The notes beneath the pieces were generated by a model. That model was given only the letters and a program-made list of their open reading frames with translations. It did not search any database and was not told the origin of the DNA. The position numbers and the translations under genes are program-made. A stretch of DNA of 46,520 bases from Thermoflexus hugenholtzii JAD2 (GTDB taxonomy: Bacteria > Chloroflexota > Dehalococcoidia > UBA2979): contig CAMDNW010000014.1 of NCBI GenBank assembly GCA_945903275.1, forward strand, positions 1 to 46,520. The letters are read 5' to 3'. Every line of letters begins with the position of its first letter. Position 1 is the first letter of the stretch. Positions 2,400 to 19,859 of the stretch are shown here, one piece after another.

Positions 2400-4010
2400 C
2401 TATTCACGATAGTGCGTCATCCAGAACTCGTAGGCGTCCTGCAAAGCGAGCCACGATGCCTCGACCACATCGGTCGAGGCACCAACGGTGCGCCAGAAGT
2501 GGACTCCATCTGTGGATTCGACGAGCACACGCACGGCCGCATCCGCGCCACCGCCCGGATTGATGATGCGCACCTTGTAGTCGCGCAGCGCGACGCGTTC
2601 GAGGCCAGGATAGGCCTCGGCGAGCGCGCGGCGGACGGCGGCGTCAAGGGCGGAGACGGGGCCGTTACCGTCGGCGGCGGTCTGGGTGACGCGCTCGCCC
2701 GCGCGCACCTTCACCATAGCCTCAGCTTGCATCTCGTTCTCGCTGTTGTATCCTTCGGCACCGGGATGACGGCGACGTTCCACGATCAGGAAGTCTTCCA
2801 AACCAAAGGGTGCGACGTAGCCATCGAGTAACCGGCGGACGAGCAGTTCAAAAGACGCCTCGGCGGACTCGTACTGGAAGCCGCGATTTTCCTGCTCCTT
2901 CACGCGTTCGAGGATGTCGCGGGCCTGTGCATCGGTCAGTTCGATACCGGTGCCCTGCTCGCGCAATTTCGTGATCACGTTGCGACGACCGGAAAGCTCG
3001 GAGACGAGTACGCGCTCGGTGTTCCCTACCGCGAGCGGGTCGATGTGCGTGTACGAACCGGGCATCTTTGAAATCGCCGCCGCGTGCAGCCCGGCCTTGT
3101 GCGCGAACGCACTAGTACCGACATAGGGTTGGTGCGGGTTCTGAGCGAGGTTGGCGAGTTCTGAGGCGAAATGCGACAGGTCAGTGAGCCTAGTCAGTTG
3201 CTCGTCGGAAACGACATCAAGCCCCAGTTTCAGTTTCAGGTTCGCGATCACCGACAGGATGTTGGCGTTGCCGCAGCGCTCGCCCCAGCCGTTCAGACAG
3301 GCCTGCACCTGATTCGCGCCAGCCTGCACGGCGACGATGCTATTTGCGACCGCCATATCCGCATCATTGTGGGTGTGGATGCCGATGATGCACGGCACCG
3401 CCTCGGCGGCGGCGGCGACGGCGCGGGCGATGTGGTCGGGCATCGAGCCGCCGTTGGTATCGCAGAGCGCCACGGTGCTGGCGCCGGCGTTGGCAGCGGC
3501 ACGTAGGGTAGCGATAGCGTAGGCGGGATCTTCGCGGTAGCCATCGAAAAAGTGCTCGGCATCGAAGACGACCTCCCGACCGCGGTCCGTAAGGAAGCGG
3601 ACTGAGTCCGAGATCATGGCAAGATTCTCTTCTTCGCTTGTCTCCAGCACGTCACGCACTTGCGAGGCGGACGACTTGCCGACCAGCGTGACGACGGGCG
3701 TCTCAGCCTGATAGACGGCCAGGATCGCCGGGTCGGTGGCCGCATCGCCACCGGCACGCCTCGTGGAGCCGAAAGCGGCGAGGCGCGCGTGCTTGAGGTG
3801 CAAGCCGCGGACACGCTGGAAGAACTCCGCATCCGTAACGTTGGAGGCGGGGTAGCCGCCTTCGATGTAGTCGACGCCGAGGTCGTCGAGTTTCTGGACG
3901 ATGCTCAAACGATCTTCGAGCGAAAGCGACAGGCCTTCCATACCGAGGCCATCACGAAGAGTGGTGTCGTATAGGCGTACAGTGCGCGGTGAGTTCAGGT
4001 CAATTTTCAT
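2400..4010 (-). CDS. cimA: (R)-citramalate synthase
   Basis: It condenses pyruvate with acetyl-CoA to citramalate, the entry to the threonine-independent isoleucine route; LeuC/LeuD and LeuB can carry out the later steps. The DRE-TIM/HMGL motif LYDTTLRDGLGMEG is near the N-terminus. The metal-binding GIHTHNDADMAVANS and the NGWGERCGN loop follow, then a LeuA-type allosteric dimer domain at about 400-530. The length of about 536 aa and the GLGMEG variant fit the CimA subgroup rather than LeuA. I chose the ATG at 4010 (GTGGA about 7 nt upstream); a GTG at 4022 would add four residues. It is the last gene of the ilv-leu cluster, 248 bp after leuB, and has its own possible promoter. With leuA also present, the two paralogues probably divide citramalate and isopropylmalate synthesis. 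Confidence 0.9.
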   Translation of the reverse strand: MKIDLNSPRTVRLYDTTLRDGLGMEGLSLSLEDRLSIVQKLDDLGVDYIEGGYPASNVTDAEFFQRVRGLHLKHARLAAFGSTRRAGGDAATDPAILAVYQAETPVVTLVGKSSASQVRDVLETSEEENLAMISDSVRFLTDRGREVVFDAEHFFDGYREDPAYAIATLRAAANAGASTVALCDTNGGSMPDHIARAVAAAAEAVPCIIGIHTHNDADMAVANSIVAVQAGANQVQACLNGWGERCGNANILSVIANLKLKLGLDVVSDEQLTRLTDLSHFASELANLAQNPHQPYVGTSAFAHKAGLHAAAISKMPGSYTHIDPLAVGNTERVLVSELSGRRNVITKLREQGTGIELTDAQARDILERVKEQENRGFQYESAEASFELLVRRLLDGYVAPFGLEDFLIVERRRHPGAEGYNSENEMQAEAMVKVRAGERVTQTAADGNGPVSALDAAVRRALAEAYPGLERVALRDYKVRIINPGGGADAAVRVLVESTDGVHFWRTVGASTDVVEASWLALQDAYEFWMTHYRE

Positions 4011-4203
4011 TGTGGTGTCCACTTCCTGGCCGCCGGGCGCCCGAAGCGCACGACATGCTCTCTGGCCCTCGCCGGGGCCGAATACATCGAACCCGTGTAA
4101 GGAATGTGATCAGGAGCGGCCGATAATGGGCGTCGCCGGTCGCGAAGACCGGACGACGTGCACCGCTTTCATGTGAGGAAGTATCGAGATTGTCACGAGC
4201 TCG

Positions 4204-4233
4204 ATTCTAGAGGCAGGCGGTGCAGCCTCGCAA
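4204..4233 (-). promoter_or_regulatory. Possible internal promoter for cimA
   Basis: On the minus strand TTGCGA (4228-4233) is followed after 18 bases by TAGAAT (4204-4209), a 5/6 match to the -10 consensus. It lies in the 248-bp leuB-cimA gap and would give cimA a leader of roughly 180 nt. The rest of the gap holds no terminator that I can see. The match is moderate and untested. Confidence 0.4.
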
Positions 4234-4270
4234 ACTGGGAATACCCTCACTCGCCGCCTGCCCAAAATGG

Positions 4271-5365
4271 CTATCCGAGGCGGTCGAGGATCGCCTCGGC
4301 CATCTCGCGGGTGGAGAGGGCTTGTTCGCCGGGCTTGGTTATGTCGGCGGTGCGCATGCCGTCGTCGATGGCCTTGGTGACGGCGGCTTCGAGCGCCTGT
4401 GCCTCGGTCTCCAGGCCAAGCGAGTAGCGGAGCAGCAGCGCAGTGCAGCGGAGCATGCCGATGGGGTTGGCGATGCCCTTGCCCGCGATGTCCGGCGCGG
4501 AGCCATGGATCGGCTCGTACATACCGAGACCGGTGCCGTCGGGGCGCAGGGCGCCGAGCGAGGCTGACGGGAGCATGCCGAGGGAGCCAGCGAGCATCGA
4601 TGCCTCATCCGTAAGAATGTCGCCGAAGAGATTCTCGGTGATGATCACATCGAAGGTGGCGGGGCGGCGGATTAGATGCATAGCCATCGCGTCGACGAGC
4701 ACGTTCTCGAACTCGACATCGGCGTACTCGGGGCGCACCTCCGTCACGACCTCGCGCCAGAGCCGCGAGGAGGCCAGCACGTTGGCCTTGTCCACGTGCG
4801 TGACCTTACCCTTGCGCTTCCGCGCGAGCTGGAAGCCTAGGTGCGCCACGCGTGCCACTTCATCCTCGGTGTAGTACATGGAGTCGACCGCAGCGCGCTT
4901 GCCGTCTGCGGTAGTACTAGGGCCTTGCGGTTTGCCGAAGTAGACACCACCCGTGAGTTCGCGGATCACGATGATGTCGACGCCACGCAGCGTCTCCGGC
5001 TTAATCGTCGTGTTGTCGATCAGCGCCTCATCGACCTTCACCGGGCGGATGTTCGCCCACAGGCCGAGGCCCGCACGGAATGCGAGCAGGCCACGCTCCG
5101 GGCGATCGGTTGCGCGGGGGTCATCCCATTTGGGGCCGCCGACGGCGCCCCAGAGCACTGCGTCGGACTGCTTGGCGGCATCGAGAGTCTCGGGCTTCAG
5201 TGAAGTGCCAAAGGTATCGATGGCGATGCCGCCGACGAGGTCTTCCTGGAACTCGAAGGTGTGACCAAACTTCTTGCCGATCGCCTCGAGGGCGCGGACG
5301 CCCTCGGCGGTAACTTCGGGGCCGATGCCGTCGCCGGCGAGCACCATGATCTTGTAGTTGCCCAT
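4271..5365 (-). CDS. leuB: 3-isopropylmalate dehydrogenase
   Basis: It oxidatively decarboxylates 3-isopropylmalate to 2-oxoisocaproate with NAD+, the third step of leucine synthesis. The protein (364 aa, normal length) opens with [15 protein letters not shown]. It contains [12 protein letters not shown], the substrate Lys/Asp region ([16 protein letters not shown] in general form, here [17 protein letters not shown]) and the cofactor region [19 protein letters not shown]. The family also serves the citramalate/isoleucine route, which fits cimA immediately downstream. It is separated from leuD by a kinase gene and a membrane-protein gene, which is an unusual arrangement. Start is ATG. Confidence 0.96.
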
Positions 5366-5387
5366 GACTGGCCCCCTCGGCTACGGA

Positions 5388-5864
5388 CTAGGCGCCCGGC
5401 TTAAACACCATGAGTGCGATGAACACGATGACCATAAGCGATAGAACGTGGGTGGTGATCATCACCTTCATGTCGGCAACGGCAGCGATGAGCGCCGGAC
5501 TCTCCTCGCGACCAGCGGCGTTCTCGGATACAGCGAGCGCGTGCAGCTTGGTCTCGGCGGGGCCGAGGATCGCAGCGGAGAGGGCCATCGAGAGGATCCA
5601 GACGAGGTACGTCACGCTGACCCAGGGAGCACCGAAACTCTGACCAGTCACTGAGACCAGCCAGCTGCCCGTTATGATCGTGATCAGCGCTCCGGTGATG
5701 GTGAGCATTGGAACACGCGACCCGGCGTTCGCGAGAGCCAGGATGGCCGTGGTGCTTCGGGAGCGCCGCATCCCAGCGAGCGTGACTTCGCCGAGCCCTG
5801 CACCCGCGGCAATCATGAACGAGCCGAGGATATGGAAGAACAGCAGTATCTGGATCGTGGTCAC
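5388..5864 (-). CDS. Small integral membrane protein, DUF2269-like
   Basis: A 158-aa protein with about four hydrophobic helices: residues 4-28 (ILLFFHILGSFMIAAGAG), 48-72 (MLTITGALITIITGSWLVSV), 82-103 (YLVWILSMALSAAILGP) and 133-155 (HVLSLMVIVFIALMVF). The FHILGSFM start with a His in helix 1 resembles the DUF2269 family, whose function is unknown. It starts at a GTG preceded by AGGAAGGG. It lies between an APH-like kinase and leuB, 22 bp from leuB, so it is probably co-transcribed with the leucine genes. No role in leucine synthesis or transport can be inferred from the sequence. Confidence 0.75.
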   Translation of the reverse strand: MTTIQILLFFHILGSFMIAAGAGLGEVTLAGMRRSRSTTAILALANAGSRVPMLTITGALITIITGSWLVSVTGQSFGAPWVSVTYLVWILSMALSAAILGPAETKLHALAVSENAAGREESPALIAAVADMKVMITTHVLSLMVIVFIALMVFKPGA

Positions 5865-5902
5865 TGGCGAACCCTTCCTGGCGGGTGGCGTGCCTCGGGA
5901 TA

Positions 5903-6835
5903 CTACGGCCCCGTTGGCGGGCGTTCCAGCGCGGCTCGTGCGCGGGCGGCGAGTTTAACGCGACCCGCGCGTAGTTCCGCCGCGTCATTGGTCTCCACAC
6001 CGAACTGGACGGAGAAGAGTGGCACGACCGCTATGTAGAAGGCGACGCGCCGCCGCAGACCCGGATCGTCACGCACAACCGATGGCCCTGCGTAATAGCG
6101 GAGCACGCGTTCCATGAATGACGACGAGAACATATTGAGCAGACCCGCGAAATCGAGTGCCGGATCGGCAACCATTGAGGCCTCCCAATCGATTACGCCT
6201 GACAACGAACCGTCCGAACGCAGGCGCACATGCTCTGGGCCGAGGTCACCGTGCACGAAGACGCTCGGTGTGCCTCGCGTGGCGCCATCTGCGAGGAAGC
6301 GAGCGTAGACGGCATCGACCCAGTGCGCGCTCAGCGCTGAGAGATGCGGACGGGTGGCAGCGAGCATTGGGAGGTATTGATCTGCCCAAAGTTCGCGTCT
6401 GGGGACACCGGCAACTTCGGCGCGCTCGGGCGGGAACGAGTGCAGCGCGCTGAGGAAGACTGCAAGTTGCTGCGCTAGACGGTCGCGCGATTGGCGGGGT
6501 CGTGCGCCGGCCTTCGACGCAACGCCGTCGACGTACTCATGGGCGGTAGCGAGCAACGCACCGCCGGGTGCGCGGAGCGCGCGCATGCCCCGGGGAACGA
6601 AAGGCACCTCGGCGGCGATGAGCGGTAAGAGGCGGGTCTCCATGTCGAGGCTAGGGATGTTCGCGGCGGCTTTCGGGATGCGTACGACGATGTCACGCAC
6701 ACGCAACGCGGTCACACACCAGCCTGCACCGAGGACGGAAGCGGCATCGATATCGCGGACGGTCAGATGCGGAAACTCCGCACGGAGGGCCGCGCGGAGT
6801 TCCGGTGTGAGCAGCGAAGGAGCAGCGGTAATCAC
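5903..6835 (-). CDS. Aminoglycoside phosphotransferase-fold kinase of unknown substrate
   Basis: A 310-aa protein with the APH/choline-kinase fold. The catalytic loop reads VFVHGDLGPEHVRL, with His where many APH enzymes have Asn. The metal-binding motif is GVIDWEASMVADPALDFAG. The nucleotide-binding N-lobe (residues about 25-110) includes DIVVRIPKAA, with the Lys expected to contact ATP. I chose the GTG at 6835, which overlaps the leuD stop as GTGA; longer upstream reading would run through leuD. The overlap implies translational coupling to leuD. Proteins of this fold phosphorylate antibiotics, amino alcohols, sugars or amino acids. Nothing here identifies the substrate, so a resistance annotation would not be justified. 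Confidence 0.85.
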   Translation of the reverse strand: MITAAPSLLTPELRAALRAEFPHLTVRDIDAASVLGAGWCVTALRVRDIVVRIPKAAANIPSLDMETRLLPLIAAEVPFVPRGMRALRAPGGALLATAHEYVDGVASKAGARPRQSRDRLAQQLAVFLSALHSFPPERAEVAGVPRRELWADQYLPMLAATRPHLSALSAHWVDAVYARFLADGATRGTPSVFVHGDLGPEHVRLRSDGSLSGVIDWEASMVADPALDFAGLLNMFSSSFMERVLRYYAGPSVVRDDPGLRRRVAFYIAVVPLFSVQFGVETNDAAELRAGRVKLAARARAALERPPTGP

Positions 6836-7449
6836 GCCTTTGCGGACGCCTCGTTCTTCAGCGTGAGCGGAAGCAGCGGCGAGCGGCTCTCCTCGAAGAT
6901 CGCGATGTCGTCGTCGTACTGCATAGTGAGGCCGATGTCGTCGAGGCCGTTCATTAGACATTGGCGGACGAACGGGTCGATGTCGAAGTGACGCTGCCAC
7001 TCGGTGCCGGCAACGGATACGGTCTGGCTCTCCAGGCTGACAACGATCTGGCCAGCAGGAAGTTCCTCAGCGCGCGCCATGAGGTAGTCAACATCCGACT
7101 GCGGGAGCACTACGCAGAGAAGGCCGATCTTCGCGCAGTTGTTGCGGAAGATATCGCCGAAGGACGGGGCAATGATTGACTTCACGCCCATGTCCTCGAG
7201 ACCCCAGGGCGCGTGCTCACGAGACGAGCCGCAGCCGAAGTTCTGCTGCGCGAGCATGATCGGCGCGCCATAGTACTGCGGCTGGTTGGTTACAAAATCG
7301 GGGTCTTTCTTCCAGTCGTAGAAGGTGAACGGGCCGAAGCCAGAACGCTCGATGCGCTTCAGAAACTGCTTGGGCATGATCTGGTCGGTATCGACATCCG
7401 CGCGGTTGAGCGGGATCGCGTTGCCTACGATGTTGTGTACTGGCTCCAT
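6832..7449 (-). CDS. leuD: 3-isopropylmalate dehydratase small subunit
   Basis: Small subunit of isopropylmalate isomerase, which converts 2- to 3-isopropylmalate together with LeuC and probably also processes citramalate. The 205-aa protein has the family signature ADVDTDQIMPKQFL near the N-terminus and the swivel-domain motif NFGCGSSREHAPWGL. A C-terminal PFVRQCLMNGLDDIGLT segment completes the domain. The length is normal for bacterial LeuD. It starts 23 bp after leuC, and its stop overlaps the GTG of the downstream kinase gene. Confidence 0.96.
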   Translation of the reverse strand: MEPVHNIVGNAIPLNRADVDTDQIMPKQFLKRIERSGFGPFTFYDWKKDPDFVTNQPQYYGAPIMLAQQNFGCGSSREHAPWGLEDMGVKSIIAPSFGDIFRNNCAKIGLLCVVLPQSDVDYLMARAEELPAGQIVVSLESQTVSVAGTEWQRHFDIDPFVRQCLMNGLDDIGLTMQYDDDIAIFEESRSPLLPLTLKNEASAKA

Positions 7450-7472
7450 CTTTGCTGCTCCTTCTTCCGGAC

Positions 7473-8882
7473 TTACTTGCCGACGATGTCGCGGATGTCC
7501 ACGAAGTGGCCAGCGATAGCGGCCGCAGCCGCCATCTCCGGGCTGACGAGATGCGTCCGTCCGCCCGCACCCTGACGACCCTCAAAGTTGCGGTTCGAGG
7601 TCGAGGCGCAGCGCTCACCGGGCAAGAGGATGTCCGGGTTCATGCCGAGGCACATCGAGCAGCCCGCGTCGCGCCACTCGAAGCCGGCGTCCTTGAAAAT
7701 CTGGTCGAGGCCCTCGCGCTCGGCCTGCTGTTTGATGAGTCCAGAGCCGGGCACGACCATCGCGCTCACGGTGGAGGCGACGCGCTTGCCCTGCACGACC
7801 TTGGCAGCGGCGCGGAGATCCTCGATGCGCGAATTCGTACAGGAACCAAGGAAGACGCGGTTAATGGTTATGTCCTGAATCTTGGTGCCGGCAGTGAGGC
7901 CCATGTAGACCAGCGAGCGGGCAGCCGTCTCGCGGGCGGAGGGGGACACGGCCTCATCGGGGTCGGGGACCATGCCGCTGACCGGAACGCTCTGGGCCGG
8001 GGTGGTGCCCCAGGTTACGTGCGGCTCGATGGTGTTGCCGTCGAGTTCGACATACTTGTCGAACGTCGCACTCTCATCGGTGGGGAGGGTCTTCCAGTAC
8101 GCAACGGCCTTCTCCCAGTCTTCGCCCTGTGGCGCGTAGGGACGGCCCTTCACGTAGTCGAAGGTGGTCTGGTCGGGGGCAATGAGGCCAGCACGAGCGC
8201 CCGCCTCGATGGACATGTTGCACATGGTCATGCGGCCCTCCATCGAGAGGGCGCGTATTACGTCGCCTCGGTACTCGATGACGTGGCCGATGCCGCCGTC
8301 GACACCGATCTTGCGGATGATGGCGAGGATTACGTCTTTGGCGGTCACGCCGACGCCAAGCGTCCCGTTCACCTCAACGGACATGGTCTTGGGGCGGGCC
8401 TGCATGAGGGACTGCGTGGCGAGGACGTGCTCGACCTCGGAAGTACCGATGCCGAACGCGAGCGCGCCGAACGCGCCGTGGGTCGAAGTGTGCGAGTCAC
8501 CGCAGACAATGACCATGCCTGGCTGAGTCATGCCCTGCTCGGGGCCGATGATGTGCACGATGCCCTGGCGCAGGTCGAACATGTCGTAGAACGGGATGCC
8601 GAACTGGTTGCAGTTGTCGCGCAGAGTATCGATCTGCTTCTGTGAGGTCGGATCTGGGTTCGGTAGTTCGCGGCCGATCGTCGGGATATTGTGGTCGACC
8701 GTCGAGAACGTGAGATCGGGTCGGCGCACCGTGCGACCGGCGATGCGGAGCGACTCAAACGCCTGCGGCGACGTGACCTCGTGGACGAGGTGCATGTCGA
8801 TATAGAGCAAGTCAGGCTGGCCAGTTTGCTGGCGAACGAGGTGCTGCTCCCAGATTTTCTCGGACAATGTTTGTGGACTCAT
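7473..8882 (-). CDS. leuC: 3-isopropylmalate dehydratase large subunit
   Basis: Aconitase-family large subunit (469 aa, normal) that binds the 4Fe-4S cluster of isopropylmalate isomerase. The cluster cysteines are in [16 protein letters not shown] and [31 protein letters not shown] is the conserved substrate-loop signature. The start ATG is preceded by GGGGGG about 5 nt upstream. It begins after a conspicuously AT-rich 139-bp gap that follows leuA, suggesting a second control point for the leuCD part of the cluster. Confidence 0.97.
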
Positions 8883-9029
8883 GCGTTCCCCCCCGATGAT
8901 CTGATTAGCAATTTATTTCAAGTGAAGCAAATTGCTTGTCTAAGTGAACATTTTTTCGCACCACCACTGACCGATTGTGGCTTGAGATGGCGCTCGTAGA
9001 TTTACGTATATTCACGCATATTTACATAG
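8883..9029 (-). promoter_or_regulatory. AT-rich control region upstream of leuC, with decamer repeats and a palindrome
   Basis: This gap is far richer in A/T than the surrounding DNA. At 9000-9029 there are three contiguous 10-bp units on the plus strand: ATTTACGTAT, ATTCACGCAT and ATTTACATAG, one helical turn apart; the last overlaps the leuA stop. At 8925-8937 lies the perfect palindrome AAGCAA-A-TTGCTT. TTCACTT occurs twice on the minus strand on either side of it. Candidate -35/-10 elements exist (TAGACA, TTGCTT, AAATAA) but no pair is convincing. I read it as a regulator-binding site and promoter for leuCD, by inference. Confidence 0.5.
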
Positions 9030-10566
9030 ATTTTGCTGGCTCGCGGGATGTAACCGCGTTCAGGTGACGGTTCAGCGCATGGAGGTAGGCGCGCGCGCTG
9101 GCCACGAGGATGTCGGTATCCGCGGCGCGGCCAGTGTATACGCCTCCGTCTGCCTCGATGCGAATGGTGACTTCACCCTGGGCGTCGATGCCCTCGGTGA
9201 CGGATTTGACCGAAAACTCGGTCAGTTCGTTCTGGACGCCCATGACGCGATTGATGGCTTGGTAGATGGCGTCGACCGGGCCGGAGCCGATAGCGGCGTC
9301 CGAGTGCAGGGCGCCATCGGGGCCGATGAGGCGGACGGTGGCGGTGGGCGACGCGTGGTCACCCGCCGAGACCTGCACGAGGTCGAGCGTCCACTGCTCG
9401 GCGATGTGCACCGAGGTCTGTTCGGAGAGGATGGCCTCCAGGTCGCGGTCGTCCACTTCGTCGCGGCGGTCGGCGACATCCTTGAAGGCCTCGAAAACGC
9501 GCTCGAACTCCTCGGCGGAGAGCGAGACGCCTAGGTCATCGAGACGGGAGCGCAGACCGTGGCGGCCGGAGACCTTGGTGAGCACGATGGTGCCGCCAGC
9601 GGGAATGCCGATGTCGGCGGGGTTCATGATCTCGTAGGTCTCGCGCATCTTCAGAACGCCGTCCTGATGGATGCCCGAGGAGTGGCGGAAGGCGTTCTTG
9701 CCGACGATCGCCTTGTTGGACTGCGTCGCTATGCCGGAGACGCGCTCGACGAGGCGGCTGAGGCCGTACAACTCGCGCGTATTCACATCGGTGTGCACGC
9801 CCATGAAGTCCGGGCGGGTGCGGATGGCCATGATCACTTCCTCGATGGAAGCGTTACCAGCGCGCTCGCCGATGCCGTTGATAGTGCCCTCGACTTGCCG
9901 CGCGCCATTGAGCACGCCAGCCAGCGAGTTCGCCACGGCCATGCCGAGGTCGTTGTGGCAGTGGATCGAGATGCGGGCTTTGTGGATGTTCGAGACGCGC
10001 TCGCTCACCTGCTTGATGAGGTTGCCGAACTCCGCGGGAATCGCGTAGCCGACGGTGTCCGGAATGTTCACCGTAGTCGCGCCTTCTGCGATGGCAGCCT
10101 CAACCACCTGGAAGATGAACTCGGGGTCGGATCGGGAGGCATCCATGGGGGAGAACTCAACGTCTGATGTGTACTTCGCAGCGTGCGAGACGGTCGCGCG
10201 CACCATCTCGATCACGTCTTCCTTGTTCTTACGCAGCTGGTGCGCCATGTGCATGTCACTGGTGGAGATGAAGACGTGGATACGCGGCGTCTCCGCGTGA
10301 CGGACGGCCTGCCAACAGGCGTCGATGTCGCCGATGGCGGCGCGGGCAAGGCCGGCGATCACCGGGCCTTTGATCTCGCGGGCGATCAGCGACACGGCTT
10401 CAAGATCGCCGGGGGACGAGACCGGGAAGCCGGCCTCGATGATGTCCACGTTCAGGCGTTGGAGGTGGCGGGCCACTTCCAGTTTGTCCTCGATGGTGAA
10501 GCCGACACCGGCGGACTGTTCGCCGTCGCGCAGGGTGGTATCGAAGATGTAGACCTTGTCGCTCAT
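9022..10566 (-). CDS. leuA: 2-isopropylmalate synthase
   Basis: It condenses acetyl-CoA with 2-oxoisovalerate, the committed step of leucine synthesis. The 514-aa protein has the DRE-TIM motif IFDTTLRDGEQSAGVGF near residue 10, the metal-binding SIHCHNDLGMAVANSLAG and NGIGERAGNASIEE. The C-terminal LeuA dimer domain (about 390-505) normally confers leucine feedback inhibition. Length matches the classical LeuA type 1. Its ATG overlaps the stop of an upstream 79-codon ORF as ATGA, suggesting coupled translation. Confidence 0.97.
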   Translation of the reverse strand: MSDKVYIFDTTLRDGEQSAGVGFTIEDKLEVARHLQRLNVDIIEAGFPVSSPGDLEAVSLIAREIKGPVIAGLARAAIGDIDACWQAVRHAETPRIHVFISTSDMHMAHQLRKNKEDVIEMVRATVSHAAKYTSDVEFSPMDASRSDPEFIFQVVEAAIAEGATTVNIPDTVGYAIPAEFGNLIKQVSERVSNIHKARISIHCHNDLGMAVANSLAGVLNGARQVEGTINGIGERAGNASIEEVIMAIRTRPDFMGVHTDVNTRELYGLSRLVERVSGIATQSNKAIVGKNAFRHSSGIHQDGVLKMRETYEIMNPADIGIPAGGTIVLTKVSGRHGLRSRLDDLGVSLSAEEFERVFEAFKDVADRRDEVDDRDLEAILSEQTSVHIAEQWTLDLVQVSAGDHASPTATVRLIGPDGALHSDAAIGSGPVDAIYQAINRVMGVQNELTEFSVKSVTEGIDAQGEVTIRIEADGGVYTGRAADTDILVASARAYLHALNRHLNAVTSREPAKSM

Positions 10567-10802
10567 TGCTGTTCCCTCGTCATATTGTCCTCGGTAGTGA
10601 CGCCGTGGAGCCCTCCCAGCCGCCAGTTCGCGGCGGAGGGCCGACGAAGGGCGAGGGTGGGGGCGAGGTAGGCGAGCGGACCGAAGGTAAGCTGGGATAC
10701 GAGCCGCAGCACCCAGTTGGTGACGGCTGCGCGCACGCGGGCTCCGCCGTACAGGCGTACGGAGCGAGCCTCGGGCACCATGCGGAAGAAGTCTTCGGTC
10801 AA
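10563..10802 (-). CDS. Possible small leucine-rich ORF coupled to leuA
   Basis: A 79-codon ORF starting at TTG, with AGGA about 6 nt upstream (an ATG at 10781 is an alternative). It fills the gap between ilvN and leuA and ends with a 4-bp ATGA overlap with leuA. The middle of the product is rich in Leu (VLRLVSQLTFGPLAYLAP then TLALRR). Third positions are GC-rich like real genes here. I recognise no family. It could be a small protein, a coupling ORF, or a leucine-sensing leader, since the DNA also folds into hairpins (10610-10641, and CCGTAC-GCCT-GTACGG further upstream). Whether it is translated is unproven. Confidence 0.4.
   Translation of the reverse strand: MTEDFFRMVPEARSVRLYGGARVRAAVTNWVLRLVSQLTFGPLAYLAPTLALRRPSAANWRLGGLHGVTTEDNMTREQQ
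10610..10641 (-). other. RNA hairpin upstream of leuA
   Basis: GCCCTCC and GGAGGGC pair around an inner GCCGC/GCGGC stem with a six-base loop and a two-base bulge, giving 12 base pairs. It lies 44 bases upstream of the leuA ATG, inside the small ORF. No T-run follows, so it is not a classical terminator. It may be a stability or translational-control structure. Confidence 0.45.
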
Positions 10803-10819
10803 CGCGTTCCTGCTCTGCG

Positions 10820-11395
10820 CTAGTCGCTCACGTAGGGGAGCTTGCCTTCCGGCAGTCTTCCGGATTCCATGTGGAAACGTTCGATCGCCTCCGGCTCGTC
10901 CTCATGGACAGCAGTGGTGCCCGTGCCGCGCAACATGGCGACACGGCCGGTGCGGACGAGTTCGAGAATGCCGTAGGGTCGGAGGTTCACGAGGAACGCG
11001 TCCATCCGATCCTGCTCGGCGGCGATCTCCACCATCAGGTGATCAGGAGAGACATCGACGATGTGCGCCCGGAAGATCTCGATCAGGTCGCGCACTTCGT
11101 GGCGCTGGGTAGTGGCGCAGCGCACTTTGATCAGTGCGAGTTCGCGGACGACAGCCTCGGCGTTAGTCATGTCTTCGACGCGGATGACATCGATCAACTT
11201 GTCGAGTTGCTTCTCGACTTGATCGGCGATGCCTTCGGCGCCATCGACGACGATGGTCATGCGCGAGATACCAACTTCCTCGGTCGTGCCGACGGCGAGG
11301 GAGTCGATGTTGAAGCCGCGGCGGCGGAACAGTGAGGCGACGCGATTGAGGACGCCAGGGCGGTCTTCAACCAGGGCAACGACGGTGTGCTTCAT
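10820..11395 (-). CDS. ilvN: Acetolactate synthase regulatory (small) subunit
   Basis: Regulatory subunit of acetohydroxyacid synthase, which activates the catalytic subunit and usually mediates valine inhibition. The 191-aa protein begins with the ACT domain HTVVALVEDRPGVLNRVASL and FRRRGFNIDSLAVG. A second ACT-like domain follows at about 80-160. The length is slightly above the 160-175 aa typical of IlvN/IlvH because of a short C-terminal tail. It lies 103 bp downstream of ilvB; that gap carries a REP-like hairpin. ilvC, which often follows, is absent here. Confidence 0.95.
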   Translation of the reverse strand: MKHTVVALVEDRPGVLNRVASLFRRRGFNIDSLAVGTTEEVGISRMTIVVDGAEGIADQVEKQLDKLIDVIRVEDMTNAEAVVRELALIKVRCATTQRHEVRDLIEIFRAHIVDVSPDHLMVEIAAEQDRMDAFLVNLRPYGILELVRTGRVAMLRGTGTTAVHEDEPEAIERFHMESGRLPEGKLPYVSD

Positions 11396-11430
11396 GGGGT
11401 GACCTCATAGATGGATCTTGGCATCGATGC

Positions 11431-11463
11431 CCGCTCGCCCTTCGAAAGGCTCAGGGTGAGCGG
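11431..11463. repeat. REP-like intergenic palindrome between ilvB and ilvN
   Basis: CCGCTCGCCCT and AGGGTGAGCGG form an 11-bp imperfect inverted repeat (10 of 11 pairs) around TTCGAAAGGCTC. The core resembles the CCTTCGACAAGCTCAGGG element found scattered between genes in many environmental bacteria. Only this one copy was seen in the window. In the transcript it would form a hairpin in the ilvB-ilvN gap, where it could stabilise upstream mRNA. Confidence 0.6.
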
Positions 11464-11498
11464 TAAGCAGGTCTCTCGCCGATTGATTGAGACGCTGT

Positions 11499-13196
11499 TC
11501 ATCGGTTCACGCCTTGCTGCTCGCGGGGAGCTTCGACGGTTTCGCGGAGTGAGGCGCCGGCGGGGACCATCGGCCAGACATTGCCTTCGGCCTCGACCTG
11601 GAAGTCGAGGAGCACGGGGCCATTATGGGAGTTGGCAGCACGGATGGCGTCATCGACGGCTTCCTTCTCCGTGACGCGAATACCGAGGATGCCGTAGGCC
11701 TCGGCGATCTTCATGAAGTCGGGCTGGGACATGGCGACGGAGACGTAGTTGTCCTTGTAGAACAACTCTTGCCACTGGCGAACCATGCCGAGATAGCCGT
11801 TGTTCATGATGGCCATCTTCACGGGCAGGTGCTCGTCCACCATTGTGGCGAGTTCCTGGAACGTCATCTGGAAGCCACCGTCACCGCAGATCGACCAGAC
11901 CGTCGCGTCCGGGCAGGCGACCTGCGCGCCCATCGCTGCAGGCACCTCGAAGCCCATCGTGCCGAGGCCGCCGGAGGTGATGAGCTGGTGCGGGTGGGTG
12001 AACTTCATGTGCTGCGCGGCCCACATCTGGTGTTGGCCCACGCCGGTGACGATCACGAGGTCTTCATCGTTGATCTGCGAGATGCGGTTCACCACGTATT
12101 GCACAGATATCTCTGGGCCGGACGGGATCTGCATCGAATACGCGTGCTCGGCGCGGAGGTCATCGATCCAGCGCACCCATTCGACGTGCGTGTTCTGTTT
12201 CACAGCGGGGGTGAGTACCTGTAGCACGCGCTTCGCATCGCCGAGGACAGGCGCGTGCGTAGTGATGTTCTTGCCATGTTCTGCGGCGTCGATGTCGATG
12301 TGGACGATCTTCGCGGTGGGGTTGAAGTCTGCGAAGCGGCCGAGGGCGCGGTCATCCATGCGGTTGCCGATGCCGATGATGACATCCGCGTTCGACGCGG
12401 CGTGGTTGGCCTCGTAGGAGCCGTGCATCCCCAACATGCCGTAGGCGAGCGCGTGGTCGCCGCGGATGGAGCCGAGGCCGAGCAGCGTGTTCAGCACGGG
12501 CGTGCCGGTCTTCTCGGCGAAGGCGCGGAGTTCATCGGAGGCGTTGCTGAGGATGACGCCGTGGCCGGCGATGATCAGCGGGCGCTCGGCGGCATCGATG
12601 ATGTCCGCAGCGCGGGCGATCATGTCGGGGTCGATGCGCGGGTTCGCCGCGTAGCCGCGCACCTTGACCTCGGTAGGCCATTCGAACTCAGCTTCCTCCT
12701 GGAAGACATCCTTGGGGATGTCGATGTGGACGGGGCCGGGGCGTCCGGACTGCGCGATGAAGGCAGCCTCGGCGAAGGTGTAGGCGAGGTCTTGTGCGCG
12801 CATGACGAGGTAGTTGTGCTTCACGATGGGGGTCGTGATACCGGTGATGTCGGCTTCCTGGAAGCCGTCCTTACCGAGCAGGTTGCGCGAAACATTGCCG
12901 GTGACGAAGAGGGTGGGCACCGAGTCCATCATCGCGGTGGTAATGGCGGTGACGAGGTTGGTCGCACCGGGGCCGGAGGTGGCCAGCGCGCAGCCGAGGC
13001 GGCCGGAGGCGCGAGCGTAGCCGTCCGCAGCGTGGCCGCCGCCCTGCTCGTGCCGGACGAGGATGTGGCGCACCTCGGGATGCGCTGGGAAGCGGTCGTA
13101 CAAGGGGAGTACCACTCCTCCGGGGTAGCCGAAGACGGTGTCGATCCCCACCTTCTTGAGGCATTCGAGAACAATGTCGGCACCGCTCATTTTCAT
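11499..13196 (-). CDS. ilvB: Acetolactate synthase catalytic (large) subunit
   Basis: ThDP-dependent enzyme making acetolactate (valine/leucine) and acetohydroxybutyrate (isoleucine). The 565-aa length is normal. The cofactor-activating glutamate is in LVRHEQGGGHAADGYARASG (about E50). The central FAD-binding region and the C-terminal ThDP/Mg motif ICGDGGFQMTFQELATMV with IMNNGYLGMVRQ are intact. The ATG at 13196 has GAGGGAG upstream; ATG 13190 is an alternative. It is the first structural gene of the operon, directly downstream of the transcription attenuator at 13246-13395. Confidence 0.97.
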   Translation of the reverse strand: MKMSGADIVLECLKKVGIDTVFGYPGGVVLPLYDRFPAHPEVRHILVRHEQGGGHAADGYARASGRLGCALATSGPGATNLVTAITTAMMDSVPTLFVTGNVSRNLLGKDGFQEADITGITTPIVKHNYLVMRAQDLAYTFAEAAFIAQSGRPGPVHIDIPKDVFQEEAEFEWPTEVKVRGYAANPRIDPDMIARAADIIDAAERPLIIAGHGVILSNASDELRAFAEKTGTPVLNTLLGLGSIRGDHALAYGMLGMHGSYEANHAASNADVIIGIGNRMDDRALGRFADFNPTAKIVHIDIDAAEHGKNITTHAPVLGDAKRVLQVLTPAVKQNTHVEWVRWIDDLRAEHAYSMQIPSGPEISVQYVVNRISQINDEDLVIVTGVGQHQMWAAQHMKFTHPHQLITSGGLGTMGFEVPAAMGAQVACPDATVWSICGDGGFQMTFQELATMVDEHLPVKMAIMNNGYLGMVRQWQELFYKDNYVSVAMSQPDFMKIAEAYGILGIRVTEKEAVDDAIRAANSHNGPVLLDFQVEAEGNVWPMVPAGASLRETVEAPREQQGVNR

Positions 13197-13245
13197 CGGG
13201 TGGCTCCCTCTCGGCCGGTCAGTTGGCTAGTCACTGGGTGGACAC

Positions 13246-13271
13246 GAAAACGACCCGCATGGGCGGGTCGT
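13246..13271 (-). terminator. Attenuator terminator of the ilvB operon
   Basis: On the minus strand ACGACCCGC-CCAT-GCGGGTCGT forms a perfect 9-bp, GC-rich stem with a four-base loop. It is followed at once by TTTTCG. It sits between the leader-peptide stop (13309) and the ilvB start (13196), the expected place for a ribosome-controlled intrinsic terminator. The U-run is short, which is common in GC-rich genomes. Confidence 0.8.
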
Positions 13272-13275
13272 GACA

Positions 13276-13364
13276 GGCGACGCGGGCGGCCGGGGCCGCA
13301 TGCGTCGCCTAGGTAAGTACGAGTACGACGATGAGGCCCTGCCCGGCGATGCGGGCGGCCGGGG
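13276..13364 (-). repeat. Near-identical 20-nt direct repeats in the ilvB leader
   Basis: The 20-mer at 13276-13295 and that at 13345-13364 (plus strand ggcgaYgcgggcggccgggg) differ at one base. Between them, just after the leader stop, GGCGACGC (minus strand) can pair perfectly with GCGTCGCC of the downstream copy, or with one mismatch with the upstream copy inside the leader ORF. CCGGC/GCCGG pairing inside the leader is a third option. Mutually exclusive pairings of this kind are the mechanical basis of attenuation. The exact switch was not computed. Confidence 0.6.
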
Positions 13365-13395
13365 AAGTGTGTCCTGCAGCAATCGTGATGTTCAT
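13309..13395 (-). CDS. ilvB operon leader peptide (branched-chain amino acid attenuator)
   Basis: A 28-codon ORF beginning ATG-AAC-ATC-ACG-ATT and ending in codons for GLIVVLVLT, followed by TAG. Seven of the eight codons before the final Thr are Leu, Ile or Val (two CTC, one CTT, ATC, GTC and two GTA). That run of regulatory codons just before the stop is the signature of ilv leader peptides such as ilvGMEDA and ilvBN. A terminator hairpin lies 38 nt downstream of the stop and ilvB begins 113 nt downstream. When charged tRNA is scarce the ribosome would stall here and favour readthrough into ilvB. The promoter's -10 box lies so close that the transcript may start at or just before this ATG; no Shine-Dalgarno is seen. 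Confidence 0.85.
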   Translation of the reverse strand: MNITIAAGHTSPAARIAGQGLIVVLVLT

Positions 13396-13404
13396 TGCGT
13401 ATAC

Positions 13405-13434
13405 ATTATTGCGGAGGGCGGGGAGCGGCGTCAA
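13405..13434 (-). promoter_or_regulatory. Promoter of the ilvB attenuator
   Basis: TTGACG (13429-13434) and AATAAT (13405-13410) lie 18 bases apart on the minus strand; each matches consensus at 5 of 6 bases. The -10 box covers the TAA stop of the upstream lipoprotein gene. Transcription would begin around 13396-13399, which leaves only 0-3 nt before the leader-peptide ATG. Confidence 0.7.
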
Positions 13435-19832: not shown

Positions 19833-19859
19833 ATGCCGGCAGAAATCTGCCGGCATTTT
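19833..19859 (+). terminator. Rho-independent terminator after the csoR-type gene
   Basis: ATGCCGGCAG-AAAT-CTGCCGGCAT is a perfect 10-bp stem followed by TTTTG. It lies between the convergent csoR-type gene and plsX and may also serve plsX on the other strand. Confidence 0.85.

Follow-up and report, generated by a model that had tools for sequence, protein, structure and literature searches.

Putative ribosome-mediated attenuation of ilvB by a probably leaderless, leucine- and valine-rich leader peptide in an uncultured family of Dehalococcoidia

How the genes for branched-chain amino acid (BCAA) synthesis are controlled in an uncultured lineage of the Dehalococcoidia (Chloroflexota; placed by related loci) is the question raised by a short region preceding ilvB. 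The window, that is, the whole stretch of 46,520 nucleotides analysed here, contains on its minus strand ilvB, coding for the acetolactate synthase large subunit (11499..13196; TIGR00118, 708 bits), as first structural gene, with a Shine-Dalgarno-like GAGGGAG ahead of it (13204..13210), followed by ilvN (10820-11395; TIGR00119), leuA (9022-10566; TIGR00973), leuC (7473-8882; TIGR00170), leuD (6832-7449; TIGR00171), two genes assigned by Pfam, one of the APH family (5903-7000) and one with DUF2269 (5388-5864), leuB (4271-5365; TIGR00169) and cimA (2400-4022; TIGR00977), all TIGR matches being above cut-off. Judging from gene order, the genes from ilvB to cimA (2400-13196) appear to be co-transcribed. 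The ilvC gene, beside ilvB in most relatives, is missing from this operon, and a divergent, longer KARI-like gene is present elsewhere in the genome (G000:C19:9171-10391).

A first-pass annotation had proposed that a complete transcription attenuator, sensing all three BCAAs, lies upstream of ilvB. The promoter, the 28-codon ORF and the 9-bp hairpin that it described were all found, in that order, on the minus strand. The promoter (13405..13434) is formed by a -35 box TTGACG (13434-13429), an 18-nt spacer and a -10 box AATAAT (13410-13405), with 10 of 12 consensus matches, and the ATG of the leader ORF (MNITIAAGHTSPAARIAGQGLIVVLVLT-UAG, 28 codons, 13309..13395) is located 9 nt past the -10 box. 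The ORF ends in GLIVVLVLT-UAG, seven of its last eight codons being Leu, Ile or Val codons (CUC AUC GUC GUA CUC GUA CUU, the putative regulatory codons 21-27, 13315..13335). Such an ending had been considered unlikely to arise by chance and, in fact, of the 430 ORFs in the window that start with ATG and have 12-45 codons, the leader ORF is the only one with seven such codons in its terminal eight, the runner-up having five.

We identified a short ORF ending in a Leu/Val run upstream of ilvB in 35 of the 35 family genomes that have a biosynthetic ilvB (G026 is one family genome without a match to this gene), which agrees with the conservation that the first-pass annotation had expected in relatives. 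The promoter precedes the ORF and the hairpins in a conserved placement: TTGA[CT] is found 37-41 nt ahead of the ATG in all 35 leaders, and the spacing between -35 box, -10 box and ATG is conserved across the leaders of the family, so that transcription is predicted to start at or beside the ATG. The leader ORF is therefore probably translated from a leaderless mRNA. With the start chosen without use of the reading frame, the first ATG past the promoter is in frame with the stop codon in 35/35 leaders of nine different lengths, from 78 to 108 nt (26-36 codons); since these lengths vary by threes only, it is hard to argue that the ORF is not translated. UAG is the stop codon in 33 of the 35 leaders, and the C-terminus of the peptide is conserved, whereas its N-terminus is not. 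Judged by these comparisons, the leader ORF is a real, family-wide short peptide gene.

A covariance model of the ilvB leaders, applied to 294 genomes of the class, matched 21 genomes of the family; it does not detect the AT-rich members of the family or some of the divergent ones, and their leaders were identified in other ways. Two weak matches outside the family (G102 and G177) were discarded, as inspection revealed no ilvB or leuS downstream. In the genomes that gave the ilvB leaders, the same model also detected additional copies, located upstream of leuS; no similar leaders were seen in the regions upstream of ilvC and ilvD.

The choice of codons bears on what the leader may sense. In the GC-rich ilvB leaders, GUA encodes 45 of the 56 Val residues that fall within the terminal eight codons, compared with 54/869 (6%) in the genes of the window (p = 3e-38, a value that is too small, as are the others given here, because the sequences are related, some being near-duplicates, so that independence is overstated). 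Most of the genomes compared are metagenome assemblies. CUU is also over-used among the Leu codons of the leaders (24/107 vs 54/812 in window genes, p = 1.4e-6). The frame kept in all 35 leaders, the Leu/Val run and the enrichment in GUA together describe a short ORF carrying codons of the pathway, whose translation we infer. The same codons total 107 Leu, 56 Val and only five Ile; sensing of all three BCAAs, as initially suggested, is thus supported by conservation for Leu and Val and not for Ile. The codons of the ilvB leader therefore probably point to sensing of Leu and Val.

The leuS leaders follow the plan of the ilvB leaders, with a shared promoter, a CUU-Axx-UAG ending and P1, the hairpin described below; in them GUC replaces GUA, which accounts for none of 11 Val codons (p = 5e-7), the search pattern having left the Val codon free. 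Since GUC is used in the leuS leaders at the same site, GUA seems to have been picked because of tRNA sensing rather than the shape of the RNA. We suggest that ilvB would answer to Leu and Val, and leuS to Leu alone. In the genus of the window, the UAG of the leuS leader has been replaced (by TGG, CAG and TCG in three genomes; G000:C8:15197-15279, minus strand (L165, L176), L177 and L178), and these leaders stop 5-6 codons later, inside the P1 loop (LALTWAARR, LALIQAARRN and LVLTSAAAR).

Compared with shuffled sequences, the leader region folds with z = -5.1, and P1 and T alone with z = -6.0. P1 (13274..13311) has the G of the UAG stop codon as its first base, is indicated by both folding and covariation and is present in nearly all relatives, and T (13250..13271) is a 9-bp hairpin, terminator-like in the genus of the window. 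In a 20-sequence alignment, P1 and T include six pairs with double changes and score 0.268, compared with 0.126 +/- 0.014 for shuffled and at most 0.07 for slid alignments, the first-pass annotation having expected covariation of the terminator stem. Counted from the base of P1, the changes run from C-G to G-C, U-A and U-G, with pairing kept. The loop of T is usually CGUGN in the family; in the genus of the window and its near neighbours the loop differs, the stem is longer and the U-tract is better. A third hairpin, P0 (13335..13360), lies within the ORF just 5' of the regulatory codons and is weakly conserved (mean z -0.97).

T is followed by a short U-rich tail (TTTCGTGT, 13242..13249), also given, for the hairpin at 13271-13250, as TTTCGTGTCC. 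The hairpin with TTTT of the first-pass annotation stands as to the hairpin, but the fourth T is its last paired base, so that in the window the intrinsic-terminator features are 9 bp and a tail of UUU. The U content past T averages 0.38 in the family, against a background of 0.18; T covaries, and runs of at least four U are absent after it in most relatives and in nearly all leuS copies. The window shows no enrichment of canonical U-tract terminators. The T hairpin was rejected as a terminator motif used across the genome, its counts equalling those of the reversed-pattern control. Among the few good terminator-like sites of the window is a 10-bp hairpin with TTTGTT on the plus strand (19833-19856).

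Folding was computed at equilibrium, with an assumed ribosome footprint of about 29 nt. In the window, the probability of P1 is 0.97 while the ribosomal A-site is at codons 20-24 and falls to 0.89, 0.60, 0.26 and 0 over codons 25-28; given this drop, P1 reports the position of the ribosome, and this covarying hairpin is predicted to open when the ribosome enters the last codons. The probability of T is at least 0.96 at every ribosome position in the window, so equilibrium folding yields no switch at T. The 5' arm of P1 is an alternative partner for the ORF segment that includes P0 (about -25 kcal/mol in the window; family mean z -0.53), and to this extent the alternative stems of the first-pass annotation exist, but the search revealed no stem in competition with the terminator hairpin: competitors of T sought among the ORF, the P1 arms, the tail and the Shine-Dalgarno sequence were not enriched (family mean z about 0), and equilibrium folding gave no conserved pairing mutually exclusive with T. 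The designation of a complete attenuator fits the translated leader with BCAA codons and the covarying hairpins; it does not fit the constant T, the U-tract that is not conserved and the lack of a conserved alternative stem. A textbook terminator/antiterminator switch is only partly supported.

We propose, with a probability of roughly 0.68, that this leader acts as a ribosome-mediated attenuator whose leader peptide is probably leaderless. Transcription would begin at the ATG or within about 3 nt of it, and a ribosome would trail the RNA polymerase through the leader ORF. With charged tRNA-Val(GUA) and tRNA-Leu in short supply, the ribosome would stall on the CUC/GUA/CUU codons, P1 would remain folded and the polymerase would continue into ilvB; when charged tRNAs are plentiful, the ribosome would reach the UAG at which P1 starts and open the 5' arm of P1, and the polymerase would halt at or shortly past T, ahead of ilvB. 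At the level of sequence comparison, the translated ORF, the selection of Leu and Val codons, the placement of the promoter and P1 and T as conserved hairpins are established. That the state of P1 controls termination, and in the direction proposed, we infer. In the genus of the window, our first choice is an intrinsic stop at T; elsewhere in the family the stop may be Rho- or pause-assisted.

A Rho-dependent version, in which the leader ribosome decides a Rho stop between T and ilvB and neither P1 nor T is a terminator, would account for the U-tracts that are not conserved and for the lack of enriched canonical terminators in the window; Rho is in fact encoded (TIGR00767, 619 bits), and the stretch from T to ilvB has a C/G ratio above 1 in most GC-rich members. 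Nevertheless, this stretch is only 18-160 nt long, its excess of C over G is modest and stands without a baseline from other 5' leaders, the genus of the window has a good hairpin and U-tract, and the conservation of T would be left unexplained, so we regard this version as unlikely. A classical trp-type attenuator, with an exclusion between antiterminator and terminator that is kinetic or lineage-specific and was missed by the folding used, appears quite improbable. The pairing between the ORF segment and the 5' arm of P1, strong in the window and also in L003 and L006, would suit it, but the competition is not conserved and T-arm competitors have a family mean z near 0; in some relatives T is predicted to fall to 0.02-0.5 with the ribosome on the stop codon, covering the 5' arm of P1, but this is the replete state and thus the wrong direction for a terminator.

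P1 and T might instead form a tandem signal and not competing folds, giving a ribosome-gated processive antitermination: a stalled ribosome would leave a folded P1-T pair, with the CGUG loop of T in most of the family, that lets the polymerase ignore downstream (e.g. Rho-dependent) termination, and a ribosome at the UAG would open P1 and destroy the signal. We hold this idea to be doubtful at best. Still less probable, indeed very much so, is an arrest peptide whose hydrophobic LVLVL[TSR] C-terminus stalls the ribosome on a free amino acid or other ligand and not on tRNA charging; a conserved C-terminus next to an N-terminus that is not conserved would be in keeping with it, but such a peptide has no need of the synonymous choice between GUA (ilvB) and GUC (leuS) at the same site. 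That a chance ORF lies beside ordinary intergenic hairpins with no regulation at all is scarcely credible in view of the family-wide conservation, the frame, the codon bias and the covariation, and in its strong form it is refuted by conservation.

The proposed attenuator has close published counterparts among the Actinobacteria. In Streptomyces lividans/coelicolor, leaderless leader peptides IlvL (ilvBHC) and LeuL2 (leuS) were described, and some leaders have no U-tract (PMC8079986, PMC1262725); likewise, a probably leaderless ORF with BCAA codons precedes ilvB here, a second leader with Leu codons precedes leuS, and hairpins follow the ORF. Unlike the Streptomyces leaders, of 12-13 codons, the peptides found here, in the phylum Chloroflexota, have 26-36 codons, the LVLVL-UAG run is at the very end, P1 sits on the stop codon and GUA is selected in the ilvB leader only; no sequence relation between the two groups is shown. 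The Corynebacterium ilvBNC leader, or ilvB-II motif, has an overlapping antiterminator and terminator, the latter tested by mutation, and the motif was reported only once per genome (PMC10272879, PMC11857589). It shares with our leader a BCAA-rich uORF near the transcription start, hairpins and a terminator-like hairpin before ilvB, but here P1 and T have no conserved overlap, the U-tract is variable and there is also a leuS copy. For Mycobacterium tuberculosis ilvB1, a uORF whose LVVI codons include a regulatory GUA was described, together with control of readthrough in the leader and two proposed mutually exclusive folds (PMC13236596); a BCAA uORF with GUA upstream of ilvB is common to both, whereas the mutually exclusive folds were not found here. 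By analogy, our best reading is that the leader would work like those of Streptomyces, Corynebacterium and Mycobacterium, minus a mutually exclusive antiterminator, in another phylum. Our literature search, which covered few subscription papers and whose negative outcome is no proof, found no such leader described in Chloroflexota, in line with the earlier remark that such control is little described in this lineage.

In neighbouring families, a T-box riboswitch (RF00230) is located upstream of ilvB (L116, L117 and L119), in the same position and for the same need, whereas the leader described here would sense by translation. RF00230 has no match in the window at the gathering score and none in the leader at E values up to 5, and an Rfam copy that may not include ilvB-II or ilvB-OMG gave no relevant family for the window, the leader and the leuS loci. 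In two loci of other families (L116 and L117; G059 and G056), the ilvB T-box is followed by a BCAA-rich ORF (MSGGAAVLVELIVVGLLLRESG; ...LLPVRSLVLLPLPLI), so that a T-box and a leader peptide may stand in tandem there. About 150 nt upstream of ilvB, L045, L046, L048-L054 and L058 carry another type of leader, conserved and structured (GGCTTACCGG ... CGACCGAATGGCG ... GGCACCGG), with double changes in 10 of 40 predicted pairs and no Rfam match for the three tested (L045, L048 and L049). In L235-L238, L240, L241, L245 and L246, trpE is preceded by short ORFs that contain runs of Trp (GRWWWCS, RAWWWRT, GRGWWRAWRS and WSWHGWCW). Several of these ORFs share an ATGA between their stop codon and the trpE start, which suggests translational coupling, and L236, L237, L238 and L246 also show weak T-box matches upstream.

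Our reading would extend the control of ilvB and leuS by leader peptides to an uncultured family of Chloroflexota, in which GUA in ilvB versus GUC in leuS may serve as a built-in natural control separating the sensing of Val from that of Leu. As no competing stem was found to be conserved, the generality of the terminator/antiterminator picture for leaderless leaders is open to question, and, with T-boxes at the same gene in neighbouring families, this clade offers a case for studying the swap of regulatory mechanisms.
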